A stretch of DNA of 64,000 nucleotides from Sulfurimonas crateris (lineage in GTDB: Bacteria > Campylobacterota > Campylobacteria > Campylobacterales > Sulfurimonadaceae). This document shows positions 9,937 to 56,250 of this stretch, one piece after another (the first letter of the stretch is position 1; each line of letters opens with the position of its first letter). The notes beneath the pieces are model-generated. The model saw only the letters and a list, made by a program, of their open reading frames with translations, did no database searches and was not told the DNA's origin. The position numbers and the translations under genes were made by a program. The stretch lies in assembly GCA_945883795.1 (NCBI GenBank), contig CAMCYC010000001.1, forward strand, positions 1 to 64,000. The letters are read 5' to 3'.

Positions 9937-11574
9937 ATGAATTTACACAGTTTACGATTTAAAATTATGATTGCTACACTTTCTATTGCCACGGTAGCGA
10001 GTTTATTGTTTGTCATTTTTGTTTACAATGTCCAAAAAGAGCTTTACACACAAGGCGTACAAGAAAAACTTAATCTTGCGGCACAGGCAGGAAAACTTTA
10101 TCTTGGAGAAAGTTTAGTTGATACATTTGATAAACAACATCCGATGGATGAAGGTACGCATTTAAAACTTGTTCAAAAACTAAGTCAATATGCTCAAAAT
10201 AATAATATTGAATATATTTATATGATGGTAAAGGAGAAAGAGACAATTTATACAGTTGTTAGTAGTGCATCTATTGAGGAGCTTGAAAAAAAAGAATATG
10301 ACCTTTTTTACACTGAGTATGAAGCAAGCGAAGAGATTCAAAAAGCGTTTCTAGAGCAAAAAGATGAATATTCTTTTTATGAAGATACCATTGATAAATA
10401 TGGACATTTCCGTTCCTATTTACAGCTCAATAAATCGCTAGGTGGAACATCTTATTTGATAGGTGCTGATATAAGTATTGTTCATATAGAAAGTGCTTTA
10501 AATGTTTTATTAGGTAAAAGTTTTTTACTCTTTTTGGTTGTATTTTTGATTGCAAGTCTAATCTCTTTATGGGTATCAGGAGCTATTACTCGTCGTCTTA
10601 TAAAGTTGAATGTAGAGGTCAAGAGTCTTGTTCAAACACATGATTTGAAAATTTTATTGCACCAATCTGGTCATGATGAGATTGCTCAATTAGCAAATTC
10701 TTTAAATTATTTTCTTACATCAATTCATACTGTTGTGTCGGAAGCAGTGAGCGTATCTAGTGAAAATCTAACTTTAGCATCGCAAACTGTTTATGATGCA
10801 GATGAAGTAATAAAACAAATTTCCAATACGAGAAATCTTGTGCATGAAAATCTTACAGAAATTGGAACGATTAGTTCTCAGCTTCAAACTATGTCTAGCA
10901 TGACACTTGGTGTTGTTGCATCATTGAATCAAGCAAATAAAGAACTCCAAACAACAAGAAAAAGTATTCACTCTGTTGTAGAACAAGCCAAAAATAGTGC
11001 CAAAGAGGGTGAAAATATTGCACAACAACTGCGTCAACTCGAACATCAAGCTTCTCAAATTCGAACAATTTTAACTGTAATTGGGGATATTGCAGATCAG
11101 ACGAATTTATTGGCTCTTAATGCGGCTATTGAAGCAGCTCGTGCTGGAGAACATGGGAGAGGATTTGCCGTAGTTGCGGATGAGGTACGAAAACTTGCAG
11201 AAAAAACACAATCAAGTTTAACAGAAATAAGAGTAACCACAGATGTAATAGTGCGTTCAGTTGGTGACATATCCGAGATAACGAATGGAAGTTCAGATAA
11301 TATTATTGCTCTAGCAAAAACTTCGGAACTCTCCGAAGGTTTAATATCTAATGCATCCAATACGATGAGCCAAGCAGTTCGTGCCATGAATGAGGTTCAA
11401 AAAGATTATGCAACTCTTTTGAAACTTGGAGAATCTTCTTCTACTAAAATGGCGAATATTGATGCGTATTCTTCTGCAAATATAAATACAATGTCTTTAG
11501 TAGATGAGAAAATAACTAAAGTGAGCACTTTGTCTGCAGAATTAGGAAATAAACTCAATTATTTTAAAACATAA
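9937..11574 (+). CDS. Transmembrane methyl-accepting chemotaxis protein
   Basis: The 545-residue receptor has a first membrane helix at about 10-28, a periplasmic sensor of about 155 residues, a second helix at about 187-210, a HAMP region with [12 protein letters not shown], and a signalling domain whose tip reads [38 protein letters not shown]. The sensor resembles a single Cache-type fold ([16 protein letters not shown] and a YL.ADIS segment before the second helix), but I cannot name the ligand. It sits alone between plsY and nadA with its own promoter, away from the chemosensory cluster at 43-56 kb. Confidence 0.9.
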
Positions 11575-43495: not shown

Positions 43496-43548
43496 ATAAA
43501 CTATTTTATGATATAGTGATAATCTAAAAAAAATAATATGGTGAAGTG

Positions 43549-44577
43549 ATGAGTGTAACTAAAAATGATAAGTTGGCTGTAATATTAACGCAACATCATG
43601 ATTTAATACTTGAGCGTTGGAAAAGAAAAGAGAGTGTTTTAGAAATTTTAAAAAGCAAAAAAATTGAAGCAGATTTTTTTATTAAACACTTTGGTTCTCG
43701 TGTAGTTGATTTTTTTATTGGTGTTTTAGAAGGTCAAAATACAGCTGGTCAGTGTCCCGTCATCTCCGTTATGCTCCATTTTTTCAATAAACGAGGTTTA
43801 ACGCTTGATGAAGTATATGTTATTTGTGCTGGGATGAGAAACTCGTTTGTTGATATTTTACTTGAAAATGATATTAAACATTCAGACGAAATTTTTACAA
43901 TAACAATCAACCTATTTGATTTAAATTTTGCAGGTGTCATTAAAGAGTATTTAGAGCTAACATTTGAACAAAATGAAAAAAATTTTTCACAATATGTAGA
44001 GGTGCTTGAACTTGCCTCTTCTGATAAATCCATAGAAGAAAAAAATATCCTTCAATACACCTCTTTAGTTACAGACAAAATAAAAAATACAACTTTAGAT
44101 GAATATTTTGCAAAAGATGATGAACAAGGAAATAATATAGTTTTTCGAGATGATGATGCAGATGACATGCTAGAGTATTTCAATGAGATTCCCCAATTAC
44201 TGATAATAGCTATGAATGAAACTAACTTTCGTAAAATTGAGAAAGTTGCAAATATCCTTTCAAAAACAAGTTCAATTTTATTACATTACTCTCCATATCT
44301 TGATACGCTTGCTGCAGTTATGGAAGAGTTAGCACAATCGTTACGAATTTATCATAATGCCTTTATGGAAGTTTTACAAAACAGTGAAGGAGCTTTATTA
44401 AAACTTTTTGACGCAATTAGTCTTGATATGGATAAATATATCCAACGCTTTAGTGTTGAAAGTCTAGCGATGAGAAACTCACATCATATTCATAATCCAA
44501 CCACTTTGAGTATAAAACAAATTATCTCTATGTTCTCTCCAGAAGAATTTGAAGATGGTGAAATGGACTTTTTTTAA
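43549..44577 (+). CDS. All-alpha protein of unknown function heading the chemosensory cluster, 342 aa
   Basis: ATG at 43549 is preferred to the adjacent GTG. The protein is soluble and almost entirely helical. Its first half (LAVILTQHHDLILERWKRKESVLEIL ... FFNKRGLTLDEVYVICAGMRNSFVDIL) resembles the layout of globin-like or RsbR-N-type sensor domains, with buried Trp/Phe and a conserved-looking 'gl.ldEv' segment. This is a weak comparison. The second half ends with a short acidic tail (EEFEDGEMDFF). Its position 32 bases before the HEAT-repeat gene suggests it works with the chemotaxis proteins. Confidence 0.55.
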   Translation: MSVTKNDKLAVILTQHHDLILERWKRKESVLEILKSKKIEADFFIKHFGSRVVDFFIGVLEGQNTAGQCPVISVMLHFFNKRGLTLDEVYVICAGMRNSFVDILLENDIKHSDEIFTITINLFDLNFAGVIKEYLELTFEQNEKNFSQYVEVLELASSDKSIEEKNILQYTSLVTDKIKNTTLDEYFAKDDEQGNNIVFRDDDADDMLEYFNEIPQLLIIAMNETNFRKIEKVANILSKTSSILLHYSPYLDTLAAVMEELAQSLRIYHNAFMEVLQNSEGALLKLFDAISLDMDKYIQRFSVESLAMRNSHHIHNPTTLSIKQIISMFSPEEFEDGEMDFF

Positions 44578-44609
44578 AATTAAAATTTTCAACAATTATG
44601 GAGTAATTT

Positions 44610-45233
44610 ATGGCGTTAATAAAGAATCATGTAGCTCAAAAAATAGAAGAGCTTCCAACCTTTTCAACTCTTGATGAGGCAATAAAATTTTTCAAATATA
44701 ATACAGATTTAGATAAAAAGTATTATGTTATAGAAGAGATTTCTAAACTAGCTGGTGGATTGGATTATTTATTATCTTATCTAGCTGATGATGGGTGTGA
44801 CCAAAATATATCTACAAGAATAGCAACTGTTATATCGGCTTTACCTCCCCAAAAAGCACCTGTCGAATCTATTATGAATCTTCTTAAATTGAAAAATGCT
44901 TATGTAAGAAATTTGGGTATATCGATGCTAACGCATTTTGGAAGTGCTATAAAATATCATATAGTTAAATTTTTGATAGGAGATGATAAAGATTTAAGAA
45001 TATTTGCAATTAATGTTTTAGGTGATGTAAATTTTCCAGAATCAAGAGAGATGCTTGTTGAGCTTTTAGAAACCGAACGCAATATCAATGTAGCTATGAC
45101 GGCAGTTGATTATATGGCAGAAATTGGTAAACCTGAAGATATTCCTCTTTTGGAATCTGTGAAACAAAGATTTAAAGGTGAATTTTATGCAGAATTTGCT
45201 GTTGATAATGCTATTCATAGCATTCAAGGTTAG
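44610..45233 (+). CDS. HEAT-repeat protein, 207 aa
   Basis: The protein is built of two-helix repeats, clear in KLKNAYVRNLGISMLTHFGSAIKYHIVKFL, DDKDLRIFAINVLGDVNFPESREMLVELL and NINVAMTAVDYMAEIGKPEDIPLLESV, the standard HEAT/PBS-lyase-like pattern. Such scaffolds bind partner proteins; they recur in some alternative chemosensory clusters. It sits five bases before cheR. Confidence 0.75.
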   Translation: MALIKNHVAQKIEELPTFSTLDEAIKFFKYNTDLDKKYYVIEEISKLAGGLDYLLSYLADDGCDQNISTRIATVISALPPQKAPVESIMNLLKLKNAYVRNLGISMLTHFGSAIKYHIVKFLIGDDKDLRIFAINVLGDVNFPESREMLVELLETERNINVAMTAVDYMAEIGKPEDIPLLESVKQRFKGEFYAEFAVDNAIHSIQG

Positions 45234-45238
45234 TTAAC

Positions 45239-46069
45239 ATGGCATATCTTTTATCAACAGAAAATTTTTCAAAAATGAGTGAATTAGTTTATAGAAGAAG
45301 CGGGATTTTACTTCAAAATGAGAAACATTTTGAAAAATTAGCAAAATTCATTGATGCTCGTGCATTAACATTAGGATTAGATAGTTTTAGAAAATATTTT
45401 TATAAACTCCGTTTTGATGATAATGATGAATCAGAATTTCAAGAATTGATGAATGCTATAACTGTAAATGAAACATATTTTTATAGAGAAAAAGACCAAT
45501 TTGAAGTTTTAGTCAATAATGTTTTACCAGAATTAGACACAAATACAAAAGACTTAAGACCTCTAAGAATTCTCTCTGCACCATGTTCAAGTGGAGAAGA
45601 AGCATATTCTATTATTTTGCATATCTTAGAAGAGGGTGTTGTTGTTGAAAAAAGAGATATAGAAGTTGTAGGTATTGATATAGATTCAACAGTGATAAAA
45701 AAAGCAATTCAAGGCTCATTTAGTGAAAGATCAGTCCATGCAATACCAAAAAATATTTTGGCAAAATGGTTTAAAAAAAGAAGTTTATCTTATGATATTC
45801 ATGAAAATTTACGGGGTACAATTGACTTTAAAGTAGCAAATGTATTTGACAAAATTCAGATGAGAAAACTTGGAAAATTTGATGTTATCTTTTCGAGAAA
45901 CATGATGATTTATTTTGATGATGAATCCCGTAAACAAGTAGCCATGACATTTTATGACATGTTAAATCCCGGTGGATATGTTCTTTTAGGACATGCTGAA
46001 TATATGAGTCGTATTGTCTCTGTTTTTAATGCAAAAAAAATTGACACTACTTTAATTTATCAAAAATAG
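45239..46069 (+). CDS. cheR: Chemotaxis methyltransferase CheR
   Basis: CheR methylates receptor glutamates using SAM. The 276-residue protein has the N-terminal helical domain, ITVNETYFYREKDQFEVLVNNVLPEL (family: vT.NeT.FFR), the SAM loop LRILSAPCSSGEEAYSI, DIDSTVIKKAIQG, and FDVIFSRNMMIYFDDESR. It ends with GGYVLLGHAEYM. Its substrates are probably the soluble receptor encoded in the same cluster. No tetratricopeptide extension is present. Confidence 0.94.
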   Translation: MAYLLSTENFSKMSELVYRRSGILLQNEKHFEKLAKFIDARALTLGLDSFRKYFYKLRFDDNDESEFQELMNAITVNETYFYREKDQFEVLVNNVLPELDTNTKDLRPLRILSAPCSSGEEAYSIILHILEEGVVVEKRDIEVVGIDIDSTVIKKAIQGSFSERSVHAIPKNILAKWFKKRSLSYDIHENLRGTIDFKVANVFDKIQMRKLGKFDVIFSRNMMIYFDDESRKQVAMTFYDMLNPGGYVLLGHAEYMSRIVSVFNAKKIDTTLIYQK

Positions 46070-46078
46070 GAGAAAAAA

Positions 46079-46453
46079 ATGCCATTAGTAATATTTGTAG
46101 ACGATAGTGAAACAGCCTTAGCTTCAACAAGGATGGTAACAAGTTCGATGCCAATTGAAGTAAAACAATATACAGAAGCAACAGTTGCCTTAGCACAAAT
46201 TCAAGCAGGTATGACACCAGATTTAATTATTACAGATTTGAATATGCCAGTTATGAATGGTTTTGAATTTTTACAAGAGTTGAGAATGATTCCTGCAACA
46301 AAAAGAACACCTGTTTTAATGCTTACAACTGAGACAAAAGATGAACTTAAACAACAAGGCAAAGCGTTAGGTTTAACAGGATGGATTGTCAAACCATTTA
46401 GCCCACCACAACTCAAACAAGCGATAACGAGAGTATTAAGACTACCAGCATAG
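46079..46453 (+). CDS. Single-domain response regulator (CheY-like)
   Basis: The 124-residue receiver has acidic residues DD at 8-9, phospho-acceptor Asp53 in LIITDLNMPVMNGFEF, Thr in MLTTET and Lys in GWIVKPFSPPQL. It matches the CheY type found in chemosensory clusters and lacks an output domain. A second receiver follows after 38 bases. One could act at the motor or another target and the other as a phosphate sink. Confidence 0.9.
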   Translation: MPLVIFVDDSETALASTRMVTSSMPIEVKQYTEATVALAQIQAGMTPDLIITDLNMPVMNGFEFLQELRMIPATKRTPVLMLTTETKDELKQQGKALGLTGWIVKPFSPPQLKQAITRVLRLPA

Positions 46454-46491
46454 TTTTATAAGCAAAAAGATTATTTTTTAGGAGGTAAGAC

Positions 46492-46857
46492 ATGGGAACA
46501 ATAATGATAGTAGATGATTCAAAAACAGTAAGAAGTTATCATGGTTCAATCGCAAAATCAATGGGATTTGATGTTTTAGAAGCAGTCAATGGGATGGAAG
46601 CCTTAGAAAAAAGTTTAACAGCTAATATTGAGCTTTATCTTGTTGATGTCAATATGCCTATCATGGATGGATATACCTTTATTGGTGAGTTGCGAGAACA
46701 ACCCAGCCGTAAAATAGTACCTATTATCATGGTCACAACCCAAGAGAGTGAAGAAGACAAAATTGCTGCGTACAAAGTTGGTGCAAACTTTTTTGAAACA
46801 AAGCCAATTAATCCTGATAAATTAAAAGCCTATATTCAGCTTTTACTCAAAAACTAG
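46492..46857 (+). CDS. Second single-domain response regulator (CheY-like)
   Basis: The 121-residue receiver has DD at 8-9, phospho-acceptor Asp52 in LYLVDVNMPIMDGYTF, MVTTQESEEDK and FFETKPINPDKL with the conserved Lys. It is clearly different from its neighbour, so this is not a recent duplication. GGAGG precedes the start. It lies just ahead of cheA, as expected for a direct CheA substrate. Confidence 0.9.
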   Translation: MGTIMIVDDSKTVRSYHGSIAKSMGFDVLEAVNGMEALEKSLTANIELYLVDVNMPIMDGYTFIGELREQPSRKIVPIIMVTTQESEEDKIAAYKVGANFFETKPINPDKLKAYIQLLLKN

Positions 46858-46868
46858 GAGTTTATAGT

Positions 46869-49619
46869 ATGGATTCATTACTAGAACAATTTTTACAAGA
46901 AGCAAGAGAAAACTTAGCCTTTATAGACCAACATATAGAAGAGATTAGCCCCAATGACCCTGAGCTTTTAAACTCTATTTTTCGTGCTGCACATACTTTG
47001 AAAGGGGGAAGTGGAATAGTTGGTTTTGATTCGGTAAAAGATATTACCCACTATGCTGAAGATTTATTAGATATGCTCAGATCTGGAAAAATTGAATTTA
47101 AAAACAGCATGAAAGAAGCACTTTTTGATGCTTTTGATGAAGTTATGAATCTCATTGAAGCAGCCGAAGAGAGTGGAAATGTAGTTGAGGCAAACCAAAA
47201 TATAGTTACAAAAATCATCACTAAATTAAATCAAGAGATGGGTAAAAATACTTCTATTAAACAAGCATGGAAAATCCCATTTACTCTTGTCGAAGATGTC
47301 GAACATCTTATAAATATACCTTTATCAATTTTAAGAAATATCAATTCTATAAAACTTCCTTTTAAAAATTTACCTATAGATGAAATGTTTTGTACAAAAG
47401 AACAACTATTCGCTATTATCTTTGATGTTGATAGTTCTTGTATGGTTTATGGAAATGACCCACTCTATGCGTTATCTCTTTTGGAAGAAAAAGTATTGGG
47501 AGTTTTTACATGTATGACTGACGAAAACTCAAAATCTATTTTAAGTGGCATGGAAGATGAGGATGGATTACTTCTAAAATCTTACATGGTTGCTTATGTT
47601 TATGGGAAATATGAGCATATAGAAGATTCGCTTTTTAACTTTATAGATGAGTTACAACTATTACCGCTTGATATAGCTTCTCTTCTTTGTATTAATATTG
47701 GTGAAAAAGGACATAAACTTGACCTTTTAAAAGAGTTATCGTCTTTAAGCTATAGTCATGGCACTTCTGAGATAGTTGCAAAAATTAAAAAATCTATAGA
47801 ATTAGTTGGCAAAGATACTATCCAATATGCACAACTTCAAAGATTTTTAGATATTGCTAATTTTATTACAGAAAATGAACTCTCCCAATTAAATAGTTTT
47901 TTTACAACACTTTACAAAGGGGAAGTTTATACGGGGAAAGAAAATACTCAAGCTATCACACCGCCTCAAGAGGAAACTCCAAAAAAAGAAACCTCACAAG
48001 CTCCAGTAATACAACCAATAGAAAAAACCGTTGTTGAAATGAATGAACACATGAAATCTTTACTTTTAGAGATGATAAAACAACAGTACGAATCACTTAG
48101 AATTATTGCAGGTGGAGATGAAATAGAAAGAGTCTCTTCTATTTTAGACACTCTTAGAAAATTTATTCCCCAGATGCCAAAAAAATTTGAATCTAAAGAT
48201 GACATAATCCATTTCTTAAAATCACAGCTATCTATACCTTCAGAACCAAAACCTCAAGCTCCTATAGAACAAAAACCTATAGAACCAAAAACAATACCTC
48301 AACCAGCTAAAGAAAAGATAGTAAATGAGGAAATACTAAATAATGAGGATTTATTTACTCAAGAAGATGCTCCAACACGCAATTCAGCAAAAAGACAAGA
48401 TGCTTCTAGTAAATCTGTTGTTGGTAAAACAGTCAAAATAGAGCAAGAATCTATAGACTCTCTTATGAATGTCGTTGGAGAACTCTTAGTTGCTAAAAAC
48501 TCTCTTCCATATCTTGCTGATAATGTTTTTGATATGACTCCAGAGATGATTAAGCGAGGGATTATGGAAAAATATATCTTTATCAATCGCCTCTCAGAGC
48601 AACTCCAAGATTTAATTATGAGCATGAGAATGCTTCCTATCTCTTATGTTTTTGATAGATACCCAAAACTTGTACGAGACATATCAAAAAAACTTGATAA
48701 AAAAGTAAACCTTGAAATGGACGGTGGTGAAACAAAACTCGATAAAAATATGATAGAGATGTTAGCCGACCCTATGATACATATCATGAGGAACTCTCTT
48801 GACCATGGGATTGAAACTCCAGAAGTAAGGTCAGCGAAGGGGAAAAATCCAGAAGGGACTGTGCGTTTACATGCGTATGCAGAATCTGATAAAATTATTA
48901 TTGATATTATAGATGATGGAGCGGGTATTGATATTGAAAAACTTACACATAAAGTTTTAGAAAAAGGGCTTTTGTCAATTGACCAAATAGATACATTAAC
49001 CGAAGATGAAAGAGCAGAATTAGTTTTATTGCCAGGTCTTTCTACTGCTGATACCATTAGTGAATTTAGTGGTCGTGGAGTTGGCATGGATGTTGTTAAA
49101 AAATCTATTGAAGGTTTTGGAGGCACTATTAAAATCAAAACGAAAAAAAATAGAGGTACAACAATTACTCTTTCTATCCCTGTTTCATTGGCTGTTACAT
49201 CACTTTTACATATTCAAATGAACGATATAAACTATGGTGTACCTATGGATAGTGTCTCTGAAACTGTAAAACTCCAAAGAGATAAAATTGAGTATCTACA
49301 TAATGAACCATTCATATACATAAGAGGAGAAGTTATCCCATTACTTTTCATCAAAGCAATGCTCAGTGAAGATTCTATGAAAGATGATACGCTCTCTATT
49401 GTTATTCTAAATATCAAAAACAACCTTTTAGCAGTAGTTGTGAATAAATTTTTAGGGCAATTAGATGTCGTACAAAAACCTCTCGCTGGTATTTTTGAAC
49501 ATCACCCTATTTTTACAGGAACAGCACTTTTAGGTAATGGGCAAATCATCATGGCAATTGACCCGATTGGATTGCTAGGTATATCTCAAAAATTAAAAAC
49601 AGATATTAAAGCAGCATAA
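46869..49619 (+). CDS. cheA: Chemotaxis histidine kinase CheA, enlarged
   Basis: The 916-residue kinase has an HPt domain with His42 (RAAHTLKGGSGIVGF), then a long middle region. Around residues 175-215 this contains FDVDSSCMVYGNDPLYALSLL, which resembles the 'GnDPL..L' P2-like module of CheA proteins in non-motility systems. A Pro/Lys/Glu linker follows (about 365-390 and 455-490), then the dimerisation helices from about residue 525 (LMNVVGELLVAKNSL), the ATPase with MIHIMRNSLDHGIETPEVR, DDGAGID and GRGVGMDVV, and a C-terminal CheW-like P5 domain. No receiver is fused. The product is soluble. Confidence 0.94.
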   Translation: MDSLLEQFLQEARENLAFIDQHIEEISPNDPELLNSIFRAAHTLKGGSGIVGFDSVKDITHYAEDLLDMLRSGKIEFKNSMKEALFDAFDEVMNLIEAAEESGNVVEANQNIVTKIITKLNQEMGKNTSIKQAWKIPFTLVEDVEHLINIPLSILRNINSIKLPFKNLPIDEMFCTKEQLFAIIFDVDSSCMVYGNDPLYALSLLEEKVLGVFTCMTDENSKSILSGMEDEDGLLLKSYMVAYVYGKYEHIEDSLFNFIDELQLLPLDIASLLCINIGEKGHKLDLLKELSSLSYSHGTSEIVAKIKKSIELVGKDTIQYAQLQRFLDIANFITENELSQLNSFFTTLYKGEVYTGKENTQAITPPQEETPKKETSQAPVIQPIEKTVVEMNEHMKSLLLEMIKQQYESLRIIAGGDEIERVSSILDTLRKFIPQMPKKFESKDDIIHFLKSQLSIPSEPKPQAPIEQKPIEPKTIPQPAKEKIVNEEILNNEDLFTQEDAPTRNSAKRQDASSKSVVGKTVKIEQESIDSLMNVVGELLVAKNSLPYLADNVFDMTPEMIKRGIMEKYIFINRLSEQLQDLIMSMRMLPISYVFDRYPKLVRDISKKLDKKVNLEMDGGETKLDKNMIEMLADPMIHIMRNSLDHGIETPEVRSAKGKNPEGTVRLHAYAESDKIIIDIIDDGAGIDIEKLTHKVLEKGLLSIDQIDTLTEDERAELVLLPGLSTADTISEFSGRGVGMDVVKKSIEGFGGTIKIKTKKNRGTTITLSIPVSLAVTSLLHIQMNDINYGVPMDSVSETVKLQRDKIEYLHNEPFIYIRGEVIPLLFIKAMLSEDSMKDDTLSIVILNIKNNLLAVVVNKFLGQLDVVQKPLAGIFEHHPIFTGTALLGNGQIIMAIDPIGLLGISQKLKTDIKAA

Positions 49620-49635
49620 AAAGGAAGTCAAAATT

Positions 49636-50409
49636 ATGGATGTAATTGTTTTTCGTGTAGGAATTAATCATTATGCTCTGAATATAGAAAATATTCAGAG
49701 AATTGTTCAAGCCGTAGAACTCACAAGTGTGCCTGGTTCTCATAGACTTATAGATGGTATGATGAACTATGAAAAAAATGTTGTCAAAGTTTTTAATTTT
49801 AGAAAATTAATTGAGCTACCTATTTATGAAGAGGAGCTTCAAAAAGATTTTATAGCGATAAAAAATGGGCATGAAGCGTATGTAGCAGACCTTGAAAACT
49901 CAGTATTTCATGATGCGGCATTTTTACGCTCCACAAGTCCCTATACATGTTCTCTTGGAAAATGGCTTGCTACTTTTAACTCCCATGATGATGATATATC
50001 TAAATTATTAAAACATCTTGTTTTACATCATAGAAATTTTCATAATATCTCCGCAAATATTTTAGAAATCCATAAAAATAATAAAGAAGAAGCTATAGCA
50101 CTCTATAAAAAAGAGATAAAAAATGCGATTACCACCGTACTTGGAGATATCAACACTTTAATTCAAGAACGCAAAACTGTTGCAAATTCTCTTCAGAAAT
50201 TAGTAATTTATGAAAATAATGGTAGCCAATTTGCTATTAAGGTTGATGCTATAGAAGATATTGTCAATGTGAATGAAAAAAAAATAATTTATTCAAGTGA
50301 TAATATAGGGGAAACTGAACTTCTTGGAATTTTAGACATTAAAGGTGTTTTAGTTAATATTATCAAAAGTGTCAAACTACCAACTAAAGGAGATAAATAT
50401 GGCAATTAA
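49636..50409 (+). CDS. CheW adaptor interrupted by a CZB zinc-binding domain
   Basis: The 257-residue protein starts as a CheW (VIVFRVGINHYALNIENIQRIV ... VVKVFNFRKLIELP) and resumes CheW sequence near residue 188 (LVIYENNGSQFAIKVDAIEDIV ... LLGILDIKGVLVNIIKS). Between them, residues about 71-185 form a CZB domain: His79, Cys105 in CSLGKWL, His132 and His136 in LHHRNFH. The spacing of 26, 27 and 4 fits the 3His-1Cys zinc site of CZB proteins such as DgcZ. CZB domains sense zinc or hypochlorous acid through the Cys. Here the sensor would act directly on the adaptor. AAGGAAG precedes the ATG. Confidence 0.85.
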   Translation: MDVIVFRVGINHYALNIENIQRIVQAVELTSVPGSHRLIDGMMNYEKNVVKVFNFRKLIELPIYEEELQKDFIAIKNGHEAYVADLENSVFHDAAFLRSTSPYTCSLGKWLATFNSHDDDISKLLKHLVLHHRNFHNISANILEIHKNNKEEAIALYKKEIKNAITTVLGDINTLIQERKTVANSLQKLVIYENNGSQFAIKVDAIEDIVNVNEKKIIYSSDNIGETELLGILDIKGVLVNIIKSVKLPTKGDKYGN

Positions 50410-50668
50410 CTTTCAAAACAACGAAGTAAGATTTGAAGCAGTTATTTATGAAGATGAAATAATCTCGTTAAGAAATTTTTTACAAGAAAATGGTGGTAAT
50501 GAGATAAACTTTGTTTTTACTGAATGTGATGATATCCATTTTGCAATTTTACAATTAATCATGGCTTATAAAAAAAATTATGATTGTCTCTATGAGTTTG
50601 GTGATGAAAATAAAATTTATGCAAAAGTTTTAAAAGGGTTCAGCACAAGTGAAGACAATTGTAATTAG
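50399..50668 (+). CDS. Small STAS-like protein, 89 aa
   Basis: The ATG at 50399 follows AAAGGAG and overlaps the stop of the CheW-CZB gene. The 89-residue protein has an alternating strand-helix order (VRFEAVIYEDE, ISLRNFLQEN, INFVFTECDDIHFAILQLIMAYKKNY, KIYAKVLKGF) that resembles the STAS/anti-sigma-antagonist fold, with the DD before the helix in place of the usual D-S/T. No conserved phosphorylatable Ser is evident. It overlaps the ParA gene by 20 bases. The fold call is by pattern only. Confidence 0.45.
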   Translation: MAINFQNNEVRFEAVIYEDEIISLRNFLQENGGNEINFVFTECDDIHFAILQLIMAYKKNYDCLYEFGDENKIYAKVLKGFSTSEDNCN

Positions 50669-51413
50669 TAATCGTAAAGGTGGTTCTGCAAAAACTACAA
50701 CTGCTGTAAATATCGCAAGTGGATTGGCAGAACATGGTTCAGTATTACTTTTAGATTTTGATACACAAGGGCATGCTTCTATCGGTGTGGGTTGTGATGT
50801 TAATGAAGAGTTGGGTGTCCACTCTATTTTTAGTGGTAAAACTTTGAGTGAATCGTTTATGCCTACAGTGCATAAGAATCTAACACTCTCACCTGCTCTA
50901 GCCTTTTTTGATGTTTATGAATATTCTGATTTAAGTGGTGTTTTAAAAAATAGATTTAAAGTGGAAAGTATTGCAGAATTTTTTGATTACTGCGTTATAG
51001 ATACACCACCCACTTTTGACGCTATTCTTAAAAACTCTTTAGAGGTAGCAGATAGTGTTGTTATCCCTTTTGTACCTCACTATCTTGGTGTTGTAGCCGT
51101 TGGTCAAATGCTTCGTGCATTGTATCAAAGTGCAACACATTTGAGAAGAAATATAGCAGAGGTTTATATACTTCCTGTTATGTATAATCCACATATAAAA
51201 GAGCATCAAGAATCAATAAATAAAGTAAAAAAATCTTTTGGAGAGGCAAAAATGCTCTCCCCTATAGGCGTTGATATTAAGCTCTCACAACAATTTGAAT
51301 CGGGGAAACCAATTATTTTAGATACAAAACGCTCACGAGGTTTGCATGATTATGAGAGATGTATAGCAGAACTTTTAGAAAGATTTAGGGAGGTTGATAT
51401 GTGCAAAATATAA
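50649..51413 (+). CDS. ParA/MinD-type ATPase of the chemosensory cluster
   Basis: The start is GTG within the preceding gene. The 254-residue protein has the deviant Walker A NRKGGSAKTTT with signature Lys10 and Lys15, LLLDFDTQGHAS, and VIDTPPTFD (Walker B). ParA relatives in chemotaxis operons (ParC of Vibrio, PpfA of Rhodobacter) position or segregate receptor clusters. Without a nearby parB or plasmid genes this role fits best. The N-terminal part ends near the central fold with no extra DNA-binding domain. Confidence 0.85.
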   Translation: MKTIVISNRKGGSAKTTTAVNIASGLAEHGSVLLLDFDTQGHASIGVGCDVNEELGVHSIFSGKTLSESFMPTVHKNLTLSPALAFFDVYEYSDLSGVLKNRFKVESIAEFFDYCVIDTPPTFDAILKNSLEVADSVVIPFVPHYLGVVAVGQMLRALYQSATHLRRNIAEVYILPVMYNPHIKEHQESINKVKKSFGEAKMLSPIGVDIKLSQQFESGKPIILDTKRSRGLHDYERCIAELLERFREVDMCKI

Positions 51414-51486
51414 ATACCACTAAAGAGATTATTATGTTAAATATATACAAAAGTGTGCTTAAATCAAATTTTATGGAGGGTTTAAA

Positions 51487-51915
51487 ATGATAAAGAGTAA
51501 AAGAGAAATTGATACAAAAGGATTAACTTTCTTAGAAGACGGTGAGGTTTTGTTTAACGATTTATACCTTCTATCTGAGACAGATGAAAAAGGGATAGTG
51601 GAATATGCAAGTGACTCCTTTTTAAGAGTAGCAAATATGAGTGAAGATGAACTGATTGGTCAACCGCATAATATAGTGCGACATCCTGATATGCCTCGTG
51701 CAGCATTTAAGTCACTTTGGGATGATGTTCGAAAAAAAGGTTTTTGGACAGGGTATGTAAAAAATGCTCGAAAAGGTGGAGGTTTTTACTGGGTTTATGC
51801 AACTGTGCTTCGTTCAGTGGATAAAAATGGGAAAACAAAATATGTTTCTATTCGGATAAAACCTTCTAGAGAAGATATTAAAAAAGCACAACAGCTTTAC
51901 GCAACACTAGTTTAG
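51487..51915 (+). CDS. Aer/CetB-type PAS protein
   Basis: The 142-residue protein is a single PAS domain with the energy-taxis signature YASDSFLRVANMSEDELIGQPHNIVRHPDMPRAAFKSLW followed by GYVKNARKGGGFYWVYATV. Aer and C. jejuni CetB use this domain to bind FAD and sense redox state, and CetB acts as a separate PAS protein with the receptor CetA. Here the neighbour 19 bases downstream is a soluble receptor, so a similar two-protein sensor is likely. GGAGGG precedes the ATG. Confidence 0.85.
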   Translation: MIKSKREIDTKGLTFLEDGEVLFNDLYLLSETDEKGIVEYASDSFLRVANMSEDELIGQPHNIVRHPDMPRAAFKSLWDDVRKKGFWTGYVKNARKGGGFYWVYATVLRSVDKNGKTKYVSIRIKPSREDIKKAQQLYATLV

Positions 51916-51934
51916 TAGTAAAAGGATTTTATAA

Positions 51935-53824
51935 ATGGCATTAATTAATAAGACTACAGCAGCAATACCATCATCAGTAACAACTGCCTCTGGCGGAGAC
52001 AAACGAAGACAAAGAACATTGGCAAAGCAACAACAAATTAGTGAAAGTATCGCTGGCATTGCTATGACTATACTTGAGAATGCACAAGAAAGTGTAAGTG
52101 CAATTGAGCAATTAAAATCATCTATGGAACAAATTGCAACGGCAGCTGAAGAAAATAGTGGTGCAAGTGAACAAGCTCTTCTTAATGTAAATAATATCAA
52201 TTCAAATATCAATAGAATGACTTCAACTATAGACACTGTAATATCATCTACTTTAGCCGCTGGTGATAATATTATTGCATCAGTTGGAAAAATTAATGAT
52301 TCAGTTTCAAGAATGGACATGGCAGTTAGCGTTGCACAAGCCTCATCAACAAAAAGCGAAGAGCTTAAAGTATCATCACAAAATATTGGTGATGCGGTTA
52401 GTTTTATTGCAAAGATTGCAGACCAAACAAATTTACTTGCACTTAATGCTGCAATTGAAGCAAGTCGTGCAAAAGAGCATGGAAAAGGGTTTGCAGTTGT
52501 TGCAGATGAAACAAGAGCTTTAGCTGGAGAGAGTGAAAAAAATGCTGAATTTATCTCTGAACTTGTCAATAAAATACAAGGAAGTATTGATAATATTATC
52601 ACAAGTATTGGACTCACAACTACAATTATTTCAGATAATGGGAAAAAAGGAAACGCCCTTAGTTTTAAAATGGATGAGCTTACAAAAATAGCTGTTTATT
52701 CTGTTGAAGCTGCAAGAAGTGTCAATACTTATACAAAAACATTAAGTGATTATGTTGGTAAAATCAACGAAGGTTCAAAAGAGATTGCCAGAGCGTCAAC
52801 TGAAATAGCACAATCCGTTGAAAAAACACTCAATGGAGTTGAAGTACAATCAGACGCTCTCTCGCAAACAGAAGATGATATTAAAGAATTATCGTCTTTA
52901 GCAGAAGAGTTAAAATTTTCTACAGATAGCATAAAATCAGCCGAAGACATTGCATCGTCTGCAGACACAATTAGTAACTCCATGGAAGATATTCAAACTG
53001 CACTTGCAGATGTAACAACTGCCTTAAATCAAATCGAATCTTCTTCCCATGCAACCAATAAAAGTGCACTTAACAATAAAGAGATGATTGTCATAGGTAT
53101 TGAAGCAGCAAGAGATATAGATAAACTGATTGAAATTGCTCGTAGAAATTTCGATTTACTCAAAGTCTCTTTTAATATTGTAAAAAATAGCGTAGCAGAG
53201 ATTCGTGATTCTTTTAGTGATTCTATCTCAAAGGGAAATAGTGCCGCTTCTGAACTCAATGTGATTGTCAAAGAGACAAAAAGTGTTGATAAAACAGTTG
53301 GTAATATTTCAAAATCTATCGTACAATTAAATATGCTTGCTATTAGTGGTTCAATTGAAGCAGCACGAGCTGGAGATTTTGGAAAAGGGTTTGCAGTTGT
53401 TAGTTCAGATATTAGAAACCTTGCAAAAGATTCAGAATCAAATACTGAAAAAATTAATGATATTGTAGAATCTATGAATTCTGAAATTGATACAGTCAAA
53501 ACTGATTGGAACAATCTTTTAACTTCTCAAGGTCATGAACAAAAAAGTATTAATAATCTCATCAATGATATTACAAAAATTATCGATATGCTTGTTGATT
53601 TATTGGATAGATATACAGGTCTTAAAACTATTAATAACCAAAATTTAGAAGGGATGAATCAAGTTATGATAGGAATCAATGAAATTCAAAAAGCAGTAGA
53701 ACTCAGTGCTAGAAATGCTATGGAATCTCGTAAAGCTAGTGAACTTATTATCGAAACAGTATCTCATATTAGTTCTGGTGTAGAAGATTTAGCTGTCATG
53801 GCAGATGAACTTCAACAAGGCTAA
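51935..53824 (+). CDS. Soluble chemoreceptor with two tandem signalling hairpins
   Basis: The 629-residue protein has no membrane segment, HAMP or ligand domain. A first complete hairpin has its tip at residues 160-200 ([19 protein letters not shown], then [18 protein letters not shown]). A second has its tip at 460-500 (SIVQLNMLAISGSIEAARA, then GKGFAVVSSDIRNLAKDS). The conserved Glu of each IEA lies at 175 and 475, so the offset is exactly 300 residues. Both have arms of about 125-135 residues. The first tip keeps the CheA/CheW contact consensus; the second has lost QTNLLALNA, so it may be structural or have a different partner. No CheR-binding tail pentapeptide is present. Confidence 0.88.
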   Translation: MALINKTTAAIPSSVTTASGGDKRRQRTLAKQQQISESIAGIAMTILENAQESVSAIEQLKSSMEQIATAAEENSGASEQALLNVNNINSNINRMTSTIDTVISSTLAAGDNIIASVGKINDSVSRMDMAVSVAQASSTKSEELKVSSQNIGDAVSFIAKIADQTNLLALNAAIEASRAKEHGKGFAVVADETRALAGESEKNAEFISELVNKIQGSIDNIITSIGLTTTIISDNGKKGNALSFKMDELTKIAVYSVEAARSVNTYTKTLSDYVGKINEGSKEIARASTEIAQSVEKTLNGVEVQSDALSQTEDDIKELSSLAEELKFSTDSIKSAEDIASSADTISNSMEDIQTALADVTTALNQIESSSHATNKSALNNKEMIVIGIEAARDIDKLIEIARRNFDLLKVSFNIVKNSVAEIRDSFSDSISKGNSAASELNVIVKETKSVDKTVGNISKSIVQLNMLAISGSIEAARAGDFGKGFAVVSSDIRNLAKDSESNTEKINDIVESMNSEIDTVKTDWNNLLTSQGHEQKSINNLINDITKIIDMLVDLLDRYTGLKTINNQNLEGMNQVMIGINEIQKAVELSARNAMESRKASELIIETVSHISSGVEDLAVMADELQQG

Positions 53825-53827
53825 AAA

Positions 53828-55189
53828 ATGGAAGTCCGAGAGATTTTAATTATCAAAAATGGTGTTGAGAGTTACGGAATATCAACTGAAAACATAAATC
53901 AGGTTTCGAGAGTTCCAGCTCTTATGCCTCTTCCACTAAGACCATTTGGTGTTAGAGGACTTTGTTCTGTAGGTGGAAATATTGTTACTATTATTGATAT
54001 GAATCTTCTATTGGATATGGATGAAATCGATTATAATGCTTCCTCAAGCAGACTGGTGAGTTTCAATGGCAATCACTACTCTGTAGCACTTTTAGTCACC
54101 GAAGTATATAATATAGTAGAGGTTGAACAAAGTAATACTGAGTACATGGAAAATCAAAATGAGCTTTTAGCAATTTATAAATATGAAGACTTATTGGTAC
54201 AAATTTTATCTTTAGATTTGTTGATTACAAAAATAAAGAAAGTATCAATACCATCAAAAGAGATTAAAAGTGGTAAATCTGAAGATAAAGTTTCTCTGGA
54301 AGAAAATGGCAAAAGATTTCTTATTTTTGCTATGGGTAAAGAAAAATTTGCTATAAATATTGATTATTTACGAGAGATAATTATGGCTGATGTTACTTTT
54401 ACAGAGATTACAGACAGTTCGGAAGATGTATTAGGGTTAATAAATCTCAGAAATGAACTTATTACTGTTATTGATTTACAAGCCTATTATAACTTTCAAC
54501 AAACACCAAGCTATAAAAATCGTATTTTAATAGTAAGCCATAATGGTGGAACTCTTGGTCTTTTAGTCGATAGCATTATAGATATAAAAAATATTTTAGT
54601 AAAAAATATCGAGTATATGAATGATAGTTTTGAGGATAAAAAAATCACTGGTATTATCCATGACAATAAAAACTTAATATCATTTTTTGATACAACTGTT
54701 TTAAATGATTTATTTAGTAAAAACAAAGAGTTTATTGATGCCAAAATTTCTGTAAAAGAGATGTATCGCCTCAATGAATCAGCATTAGAAGTGATTATAT
54801 TTGAACTCGCAAAAAAAGAGTATGCATTTCGTGTAGAGAGCGTAGCTGAGATTGTTGATATGGTAAAATCTACAACCATGGCATATACAAGTGAAGCAAT
54901 AGATGGAATTATCAATATAAGAGGTCAAATTATTACTGTAGTTTCCCTCTTTTATAAATTGGATATACAAAGAACAGTTCATGAAAATTCTAAAATCATT
55001 ATATGTAATATCAATAATAATAAAATAGGATTCATCGTAGATAGTGTCAGTGATATTTTACATATATCAAAGGATGAAATAAGAGAACAAGACGACCCTC
55101 TTTTTACAAATATATTGCACTTAAACAAAGGAAAAAGACTAGTTTTATGCATGGATATAGAAAAAATATTATTAAACGGGGATAAATAA
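53828..55189 (+). CDS. Triple-CheW adaptor protein
   Basis: The 453-residue protein is three CheW-like domains in a row: about residues 1-140 (ILIIKNGVESYGISTENINQV ... VRGLCSVGGNIVTIIDM), 160-295 (FLIFAMGKEKFAINIDYLREII ... VLGLINLRNELITVIDL) and 315-450 (VIIFELAKKEYAFRVESVAEIV ... IDGIINIRGQIITVVSL). Ordinary CheW has one domain. A three-domain adaptor could cross-link receptors or kinase rings. It lies between the two-headed receptor (4 bases) and cheB (overlap of one base), so co-assembly is likely. Confidence 0.9.
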   Translation: MEVREILIIKNGVESYGISTENINQVSRVPALMPLPLRPFGVRGLCSVGGNIVTIIDMNLLLDMDEIDYNASSSRLVSFNGNHYSVALLVTEVYNIVEVEQSNTEYMENQNELLAIYKYEDLLVQILSLDLLITKIKKVSIPSKEIKSGKSEDKVSLEENGKRFLIFAMGKEKFAINIDYLREIIMADVTFTEITDSSEDVLGLINLRNELITVIDLQAYYNFQQTPSYKNRILIVSHNGGTLGLLVDSIIDIKNILVKNIEYMNDSFEDKKITGIIHDNKNLISFFDTTVLNDLFSKNKEFIDAKISVKEMYRLNESALEVIIFELAKKEYAFRVESVAEIVDMVKSTTMAYTSEAIDGIINIRGQIITVVSLFYKLDIQRTVHENSKIIICNINNNKIGFIVDSVSDILHISKDEIREQDDPLFTNILHLNKGKRLVLCMDIEKILLNGDK

Positions 55190-56250
55190 TGAGAAAAAAA
55201 ATACTTATTGTAGATGATTCTGCGTTAGTAAGAAAGCAACTAAGTGAAATCATATCCATGTTGGATTTTGATATTGAGTTTGCAAAAAATGGTAAAGAAG
55301 CACTTGATAAAGCCATTGCAACACAATATGATATTATCACTATGGATATCAATATGCCCATTATGAATGGTCTTGAAGCTGTAAAAGAGATAATGGCACA
55401 AAAACCTACACCCATTTTAATGATTAGTTCTTTAACGACTGAAGATGCATCTATTACTATGGATGCACTTGATTTGGGAGCTATTGATTATATTTCCAAA
55501 CCAGGGACTATGAATATTGGTAAACAAGAAAATCAAGAAGATATTTTGGAAAAAGTGCAATATATTAGTTCCATTCCAATACGAAGACTTAAAAGACAGG
55601 TTCAAAGAGGTGCACTCAGAGAAAGAAAACGGGCTGTCACTCCTGAAAAAATAACACAAGCTACAGATTCTAAAGATATTACAAAAATTGTACTTATAGG
55701 TTCTTCAACAGGTGGCCCAGGTTTGATAGAACAAATTTGTTCCTCTTTACCAAGAGATTTTCCATTTCCTGTGTGTGTTGTACAACATATGCCTGCACAA
55801 TTTACGAATGCGTTTGCGATGCGACTCAATAGAAGTAGTGTATTAAATGTGCATGAAAGCGCACACAATATGGAAATTTTACCAGGAAATATCTATGTAG
55901 CTCATGGTGGAGTTCATATGAACTTTACAAAAAAAGTATCTGGAAAAATCATGATACGAGAAGATAAAGAAAAAGGAAAAAACTTTTTTCAACCAAGCGT
56001 CAACGAGATGCTATATAGTGCCTTAGAGGTGTTTGATGGTGTCAATATTATTGGAGTTATTTTAACAGGCATTGGTGATGATGGAGCTGATGGGATGGTA
56101 AAACTCAAAAAAGCGGGAGCTTATACTTTGGGTGAAAGTGAAAAAACTGCTGTTGTTTACGGGATGCCAAAAGAAGCATATGAGCGAGGTGGAATAACAG
56201 AACAGTTAGATTTTCCACAAATATTAAAAAAACTTGCAACACTGAAGTAA
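55189..56250 (+). CDS. cheB: Chemotaxis methylesterase CheB
   Basis: CheB removes receptor methyl groups when phosphorylated. The 353-residue protein has a receiver with Asp53 (IITMDINMPIMNGLEA) and SSLTTEDASITMDALDLGAIDYISKP, a linker, and a C-terminal esterase with the catalytic triad Ser (IGSSTGGPG), His (VVQHMPAQFTNAFAMRLN) and Asp (GIGDDGADGM). It ends with AVVYGMPKEAYERGGI. The overlap with the triple-CheW gene closes the cluster. Confidence 0.95.
   Translation: MRKKILIVDDSALVRKQLSEIISMLDFDIEFAKNGKEALDKAIATQYDIITMDINMPIMNGLEAVKEIMAQKPTPILMISSLTTEDASITMDALDLGAIDYISKPGTMNIGKQENQEDILEKVQYISSIPIRRLKRQVQRGALRERKRAVTPEKITQATDSKDITKIVLIGSSTGGPGLIEQICSSLPRDFPFPVCVVQHMPAQFTNAFAMRLNRSSVLNVHESAHNMEILPGNIYVAHGGVHMNFTKKVSGKIMIREDKEKGKNFFQPSVNEMLYSALEVFDGVNIIGVILTGIGDDGADGMVKLKKAGAYTLGESEKTAVVYGMPKEAYERGGITEQLDFPQILKKLATLK

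Follow-up and report, generated by a model that had tools for sequence, protein, structure and literature searches.

The 64,000-nucleotide stretch of the Sulfurimonas crateris genome analyzed here (contig CAMCYC010000001.1, positions 1 to 64,000; hereafter, the window) carries at 43546-56250 a gene cluster that, judged by its gene content, is a complete chemosensory system of class F9, a class already known but varied here on its input side. What is still unusual about it is a CZB domain inside a single-CheW adaptor, an Aer-type PAS protein as the putative partner of the receptor DosM, and a globin-like protein at the front of the cluster (protein A). Considering the gene content, the CZB insertion (seen in both alignment and model), the conservation of its ligands, the linkages of PAS and ParA, and the absence of membrane helices, we regard it as reasonably probable that the cluster encodes a complete F9 system in which DosM forms a rod, soluble modules (CheW-CZB and PAS) provide the input, and a ParA ATPase positions the array.

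Class F9 is described as the only one to combine DosM, a soluble receptor bearing two signalling domains, with the triple CheW known as CheW3 (PMC9321776). The F9 system of Vibrio cholerae forms double-layered arrays that are entirely cytoplasmic, with DosM reaching across two CheA/CheW3 baseplates (PMC7534058). DosM and CheW3 are both encoded in the window, where 13 co-directional genes with nearly abutting open reading frames (ORFs) lie on the + strand, as follows.

43546..44577, + strand: protein A, helical, no Pfam hit; start GTG at 43546 or ATG at 43549
44610..45233, + strand: HEAT-repeat protein, N terminus MALIK (HEAT_2, E=4.6e-13)
45239..46069, + strand: CheR methyltransferase (PF01739, E=2e-52)
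46079..46453, + strand: CheY1, one receiver domain (PF00072)
46492..46857, + strand: CheY2, one receiver domain (PF00072)
46869..49619, + strand: CheA kinase, ordered as Hpt, ∼400 amino acids (aa), dimerisation, ATPase, and CheW (ordered Pfam domains)
49636..50409, + strand: CheW adaptor interrupted by a CZB domain (Pfam CheW and CZB, AlphaFold, Foldseek)
49825..50193, + strand: inserted CZB helical domain of that adaptor, residues 64-186 (model secondary structure, ligand alignment)
50399..50668, + strand: small STAS-like protein, 89 aa (alignment; weak STAS_2 matches)
50649..51413, + strand: ParA ATPase, GTG start, overlapping the STAS-like gene (AAA_31, E=1.5e-29)
51487..51915, + strand: stand-alone Aer-type PAS protein (matches Aer PAS domain 8dik, E=7e-29)
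51935..53824, + strand: DosM, soluble two-headed methyl-accepting chemotaxis protein (MCP) without a sensor domain (two MCPsignal stretches)
53828..55189, + strand: CheW3, triple CheW, 453 aa (three CheW stretches, E=3.4e-67)
55189..56250, + strand: CheB methylesterase with receiver domain (PF01339, E=9e-55)

The Pfam and ORF check located on the + strand every gene that the first-pass annotation of this DNA had named, and its count of fifteen was corrected to 13. The F9 set is full, with CheA, CheY, CheB, and CheR of its own encoded in the cluster; partial F9 sets in Nitratiruptor and Nautilia have been stressed (PMC9321776), and F9 is among the classes listed for free-living Campylobacterota, which reportedly gained extra classes by horizontal transfer (PMC9239204). 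As that annotation had stated, none of the 13 proteins shows a membrane helix (maximum 19-residue Kyte-Doolittle mean of ≤1.67, compared with 2.9 for two control membrane proteins). The cytosolic array that it had proposed is the best reading, since DosM and CheW3 are hallmarks of the cytoplasmic F9 class. Within CheA, the ∼400 aa between Hpt and the dimerisation domain (residues ∼110-520) had no Pfam match. Scans for promoters and terminators stayed near the shuffled expectation.

The class assignment was extended by comparison with gammaproteobacterial F9 loci, whereas the likeness to V. cholerae is drawn from published descriptions (literature by locus tag on VC1396, VC1397, VC1398, VC1400, and VC1404 yielded nothing). 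A CheW3 profile built from Sulfurimonas matched six gammaproteobacterial genomes among 369, and the order there, where the locus was long enough, was DosM-CheW3-CheB-HEAT-CheR-CheY-CheA-STAS-CheY, with ParA in one cluster. The DosM proteins of Sulfurimonas and the gammaproteobacteria align along their full length and share 28-32% identity over ∼625 residues, with both signalling tips conserved. Since the HEAT and STAS-like proteins occur in these gammaproteobacterial clusters as well, they are normal F9 parts; the combination, previously thought to be undescribed, thus belongs to a class that has been published, including from Campylobacterota.

With the HEAT protein as marker, the system was detected in 9 of 397 Campylobacterota genomes, which without exception belong to the family of the window, eight of them to its genus, so that the search across this phylum proposed by the first-pass annotation did find the gene set again. 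Because it recurs in these genomes and in ∼30 Sulfurimonas loci, the cluster is, by comparison of gene content, no chance assembly. Relatives were not found in viral contigs, nor was a triple CheW found on plasmids. Sulfurimonas loci are usually ordered PAS-DosM-CheW3-CheB-HEAT-CheR-CheY1-(130 aa protein)-CheY2-CheA-CheW-STAS-ParA-REC-x, whereas the window and loci L025 (with L119) and L027 share a permuted order that starts with protein A and does not include the 130 aa protein and REC-x; in L028, L051, L052, L078, and L082, STAS precedes CheW. Among 15 Sulfurimonas-clade sequences, the HEAT protein has a mean column identity of 74%. Its N terminus is of a MAL(V/I/M)K type that DosM has as well in most Sulfurimonas loci and in the gammaproteobacterial loci L121 and L122, with MAIVKK/MSIVKK as the form in L124; such a peptide common to two unrelated proteins of one cluster suggests a common binding partner. 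In the STAS-like protein, E20, C43, and H47 are invariant across two phyla, the Cys and His lying four residues apart in both, a pair that may have a metal or redox role. Its commonest weak match was STAS_2 (8 of 18 members, best E=0.005), and a search against solved structures returned no relative.

The CheW adaptor at 49636 gave two separated Pfam CheW matches with CZB between them (CZB E=9e-7, just above the cut-off). Both domains of the CheW-CZB protein named earlier are present, but the CZB interrupts the CheW domain rather than following it. An AlphaFold model (31-sequence alignment, pLDDT of 92) placed CheW strands up to residue 54, helices at 64-186, and CheW strands again at 188-246, indicating a predicted insert of ∼120 residues inside the CheW fold. 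Foldseek matched the double-barrel fold to CheW 2ch4_Y (E=5e-8, TM of 0.78 by target length) and the helical bundle to the CZB of DgcZ, 3t9o_B (TM of 0.75 by target length). All four predicted zinc ligands of the 3His/1Cys motif are kept in the window copy (H79, C105, H132, and H136). Outside the genus, the insert is also carried by G134 and G394, which belong to other Campylobacterota families and encode a DosM-like two-headed receptor directly beside CheW-CZB. Their loci (L030 and L033) cluster CheA, the two-headed receptor, CheW-CZB, CheB, CheR, and CheY; no triple CheW was found in either genome, and the two-headed receptor system there apparently lacks CheW3. As the two genes adjoin in genomes without a triple CheW, it is favored that CheW-CZB works with two-headed receptors.

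Several observations on this adaptor weigh against a sensory role in the F9 array. Of the 32 full CZB copies, five no longer have all ligands, including those of the two nearest relatives of the window, L025 (two of four lost) and L027 (three of four), with the CZB segment retained in both. Moreover, insert-free orthologues of ∼143 aa, whose clean, continuous CheW supports the reading of the CZB as an insertion, occupy the same locus in L031, L032, L034, L075, L077, and L080, and since several Sulfurimonas F9 orthologues lack it, the CZB is, on alignment evidence, not required for the F9 system. The plain L077 adaptor is 83% identical across the CheW part to the insert-bearing one of L074, while the plain L080 copy has an in-frame stop, which may reflect a disrupted gene or else an error. 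On the CheA tree, the plain copies occupy five separate positions, and they show at least four different junctions; L031, L032, and L075 have the same kind of junction sequence, for which reason at least four events (three without L080) is the safer count. Loss of the insert appears more likely than gain, because the insert is present beyond the genus, in G134 and G394; exchange of cheW is a possible alternative. These scattered plain copies and damaged ligand sets would fit an F9 array of the ordinary kind, where the CZB is no more than a structural or relic insert and soluble receptors encoded elsewhere do the sensing, all the more as the genome encodes further receptors that lack membrane helices, two of which carry a CZB motif. 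We nevertheless judge this explanation unlikely, since all four ligands (H-C-H-H) are kept in 27 of the 32 copies, including both copies of the tandem CheW-CZB loci L070 and L072.

The genomic context raises a further alternative, which also counts against an F9-specific adaptor. In the genome as a whole, CheW domains were found on six contigs (five in CheA-sized frames), together with 38 MCP-domain matches and one FliG, so that the F9 cluster is one of several chemosensory systems in what is probably a flagellated cell. One of these MCPs, at window positions 10978-11421 (L138), is predicted to have two membrane helices and is encoded at a great distance from the cluster; it is probably the "9.9-kb receptor" mentioned in the first-pass annotation. 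With several chemosensory loci, dozens of MCPs, five places with CheA-sized CheW-bearing genes, and CheW folds that would be interchangeable in principle, CheW-CZB could enter the membrane arrays of F3 or other systems and bring its zinc or redox signal there. We consider this improbable, however, because in the Sulfurimonas loci the gene is flanked by the CheA and STAS/ParA genes of the F9 operon, while in G134 and G394 it adjoins the DosM-like gene, and because mixing among the chemosensory classes of Campylobacterota is reported to be rare (PMC9239204). From its architecture and conservation, the adaptor may bring a zinc or redox input to the F9 array.

The remaining candidate inputs are the PAS protein and protein A. 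For the PAS protein, the match to the Aer PAS domain 8dik was the best among solved structures and spans residues 22-141, including the RHPDMP stretch; its gene lies directly before DosM in all nine loci in which the whole gene was seen. Protein A was modeled as a globin-like sensor fold (approximately residues 14-142) followed by a helical C-terminal module that ends in GEMDFF. Its N-terminal half, on which the globin-like reading is based given a model of moderate confidence (pLDDT of 68), resembles the sensor-globin-fold structures 3pmd/3pmc and globin-coupled sensors at E≥0.1. Other Sulfurimonas loci encode this C-terminal module as a fusion to REC domains, and it ends there in EIEFF or a close variant. 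Acidic tails ending in FF (EIEFF, EMDFF) were seen in protein A, in its REC-fused relatives, and in the 130 aa protein, whereas REC-x ends in DDIFDF; a shared docking peptide is one possible explanation of the FF tails. Homology of protein A to REC-x, considered for shared C-terminal motifs, was dropped at an hhalign probability of 0.4%. In the 130 aa protein, which is encoded by other Sulfurimonas loci, the same kind of tail goes with a DxxxQ stretch, which we take to recall the active site of CheZ.

The ParA of the window contains a deviant Walker A motif (KGGSAKTTT, fitting KGGxxK[ST]), and the nearest solved structure is the Soj-type segregation protein 1wcv. The F9 ParAs of Sulfurimonas and of one gammaproteobacterium (L125) form a clade with support of 100/100, outside the chromosomal Soj proteins of the same genomes, so that two phyla have a distinct ParA clade tied to F9 arrays. 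Two further F9 genomes from gammaproteobacteria encode, beside a receiver gene, a ParA that is 49-51% identical to that of L125; in G732 this gene lies ∼6 kb past the end of the F9 cluster, and in G616 it is on another contig. Three of the six gammaproteobacterial F9 genomes yielded no F9-type ParA (two with only Soj-level matches and one without a close match), which counts against the proposed positioning of the array by ParA, although its absence from G693 weighs little because the F9 genes there are on a 3.9-kb contig. Together with the solitary occurrence of protein A elsewhere in G333 and its absence from Sulfurimonas F9 loci of the other layout, these ParA-free gammaproteobacterial loci could indicate that ParA, PAS, and protein A are chance neighbours outside the array. 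For the three together this is very improbable, since every Sulfurimonas-type locus with the region visible contains ParA, its gene overlapping or lying next to that of the STAS-like protein or CheW, the F9 ParAs of two phyla are one clade, and PAS lies immediately before DosM wherever a locus includes that region; for protein A, it is hard to set aside. Array positioning is our leading guess for the role of the F9 ParA, on account of this clade and of PpfA in Rhodobacter, and the ParA-positioned array suggested previously has become more plausible with the clade spanning two phyla.

For array assembly, zinc binding, signal direction, and output, we infer the following scheme. DosM would act as a membrane-free rod spanning two CheA/CheW baseplates that are built by CheW3 and CheA. 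Because DosM has no sensor domain, input to the array must come from elsewhere, and we propose the soluble modules of the cluster as its source. The CZB of the single-CheW adaptor would hold zinc and respond to zinc or redox conditions with a change of state that alters CheA within the baseplate, and the Aer-type PAS protein would bind DosM and report the redox or oxygen state, as PAS proteins do for Tlp9. CheB and CheR would adapt DosM, and CheY1 and CheY2 would provide the output. Placement or segregation of the array over the nucleoid would be the task of the F9-type ParA, in the way that PpfA handles the cytoplasmic cluster of Rhodobacter. More tentatively, we propose a sharper version, in which the two-headed receptor is purely a sensorless scaffold, the stimulus enters through the baseplate CheW-CZB that drives CheA, PAS serves as a second redox input, and the sensor has been cleanly removed more than once among the orthologues.

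These considerations bear on the question of what stimulates F9 systems. Deletion of the F9 CheA in V. cholerae caused no phenotype under standard conditions (PMC7534058), and DosM is said to depend on further sensory proteins for its input (PMC9321776). Given a DosM without a sensor domain, the cluster offers CheW-CZB, the Aer-type PAS protein, and the globin-like protein A as candidate inputs. CheW-CZB is a listed architecture (PMC10653840) that makes up 1.4% of CZB proteins and is most abundant in Clostridia (PMC8262984); it was counted in the latter study, and neither source describes its function or a link to F9. In the literature searched, we found no experimental study of CheW-CZB and no report of it in F9. 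Our own scan of genome contigs for CheW-CZB used one peptide pattern, which is no census and would miss the clostridial ones. If the proposed input is true, the signal of an F9 array enters via a zinc/redox domain built into the baseplate adaptor, and the connector itself may be the sensor.

Compared with F9 cluster I of V. cholerae (DosM VC1403, CheW3 VC1402), the Sulfurimonas cluster likewise groups a two-headed soluble receptor, a triple CheW, CheA, CheB, CheR, and CheYs, without any membrane helix; it differs in the extra single CheW with an internal CZB, the PAS gene before DosM, a ParA that is always present, a permuted order with protein A at the front, and the absence of a membrane MCP gene. 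The PpfA/TlpT cluster of Rhodobacter sphaeroides (PMC3964821) shares the soluble array and a dedicated ParA whose gene neighbors that of the receptor, but it is not F9 by gene content, has no described two-headed DosM or triple CheW, and splits its kinase into CheA3/CheA4. The CheW-CZB proteins surveyed before (PMC8262984) also combine CheW and CZB with the 3His/1Cys motif in one polypeptide, whereas in Sulfurimonas the gene is inside an F9 operon and the CZB interrupts the CheW fold. Treponema CheWS (PMC10653840) is similarly a CheW adaptor fused to a sensor domain that signals from the baseplate, but its sensor is a SAM-binding CheR-like domain at the C terminus, in a membrane array. Finally, in Campylobacter jejuni the stand-alone PAS proteins Aer1/Aer2 serve the PAS-less receptor Tlp9 (PMC9665402), and the Sulfurimonas PAS protein would likewise serve a receptor without a PAS of its own, the putative partner here being a two-headed soluble scaffold receptor.

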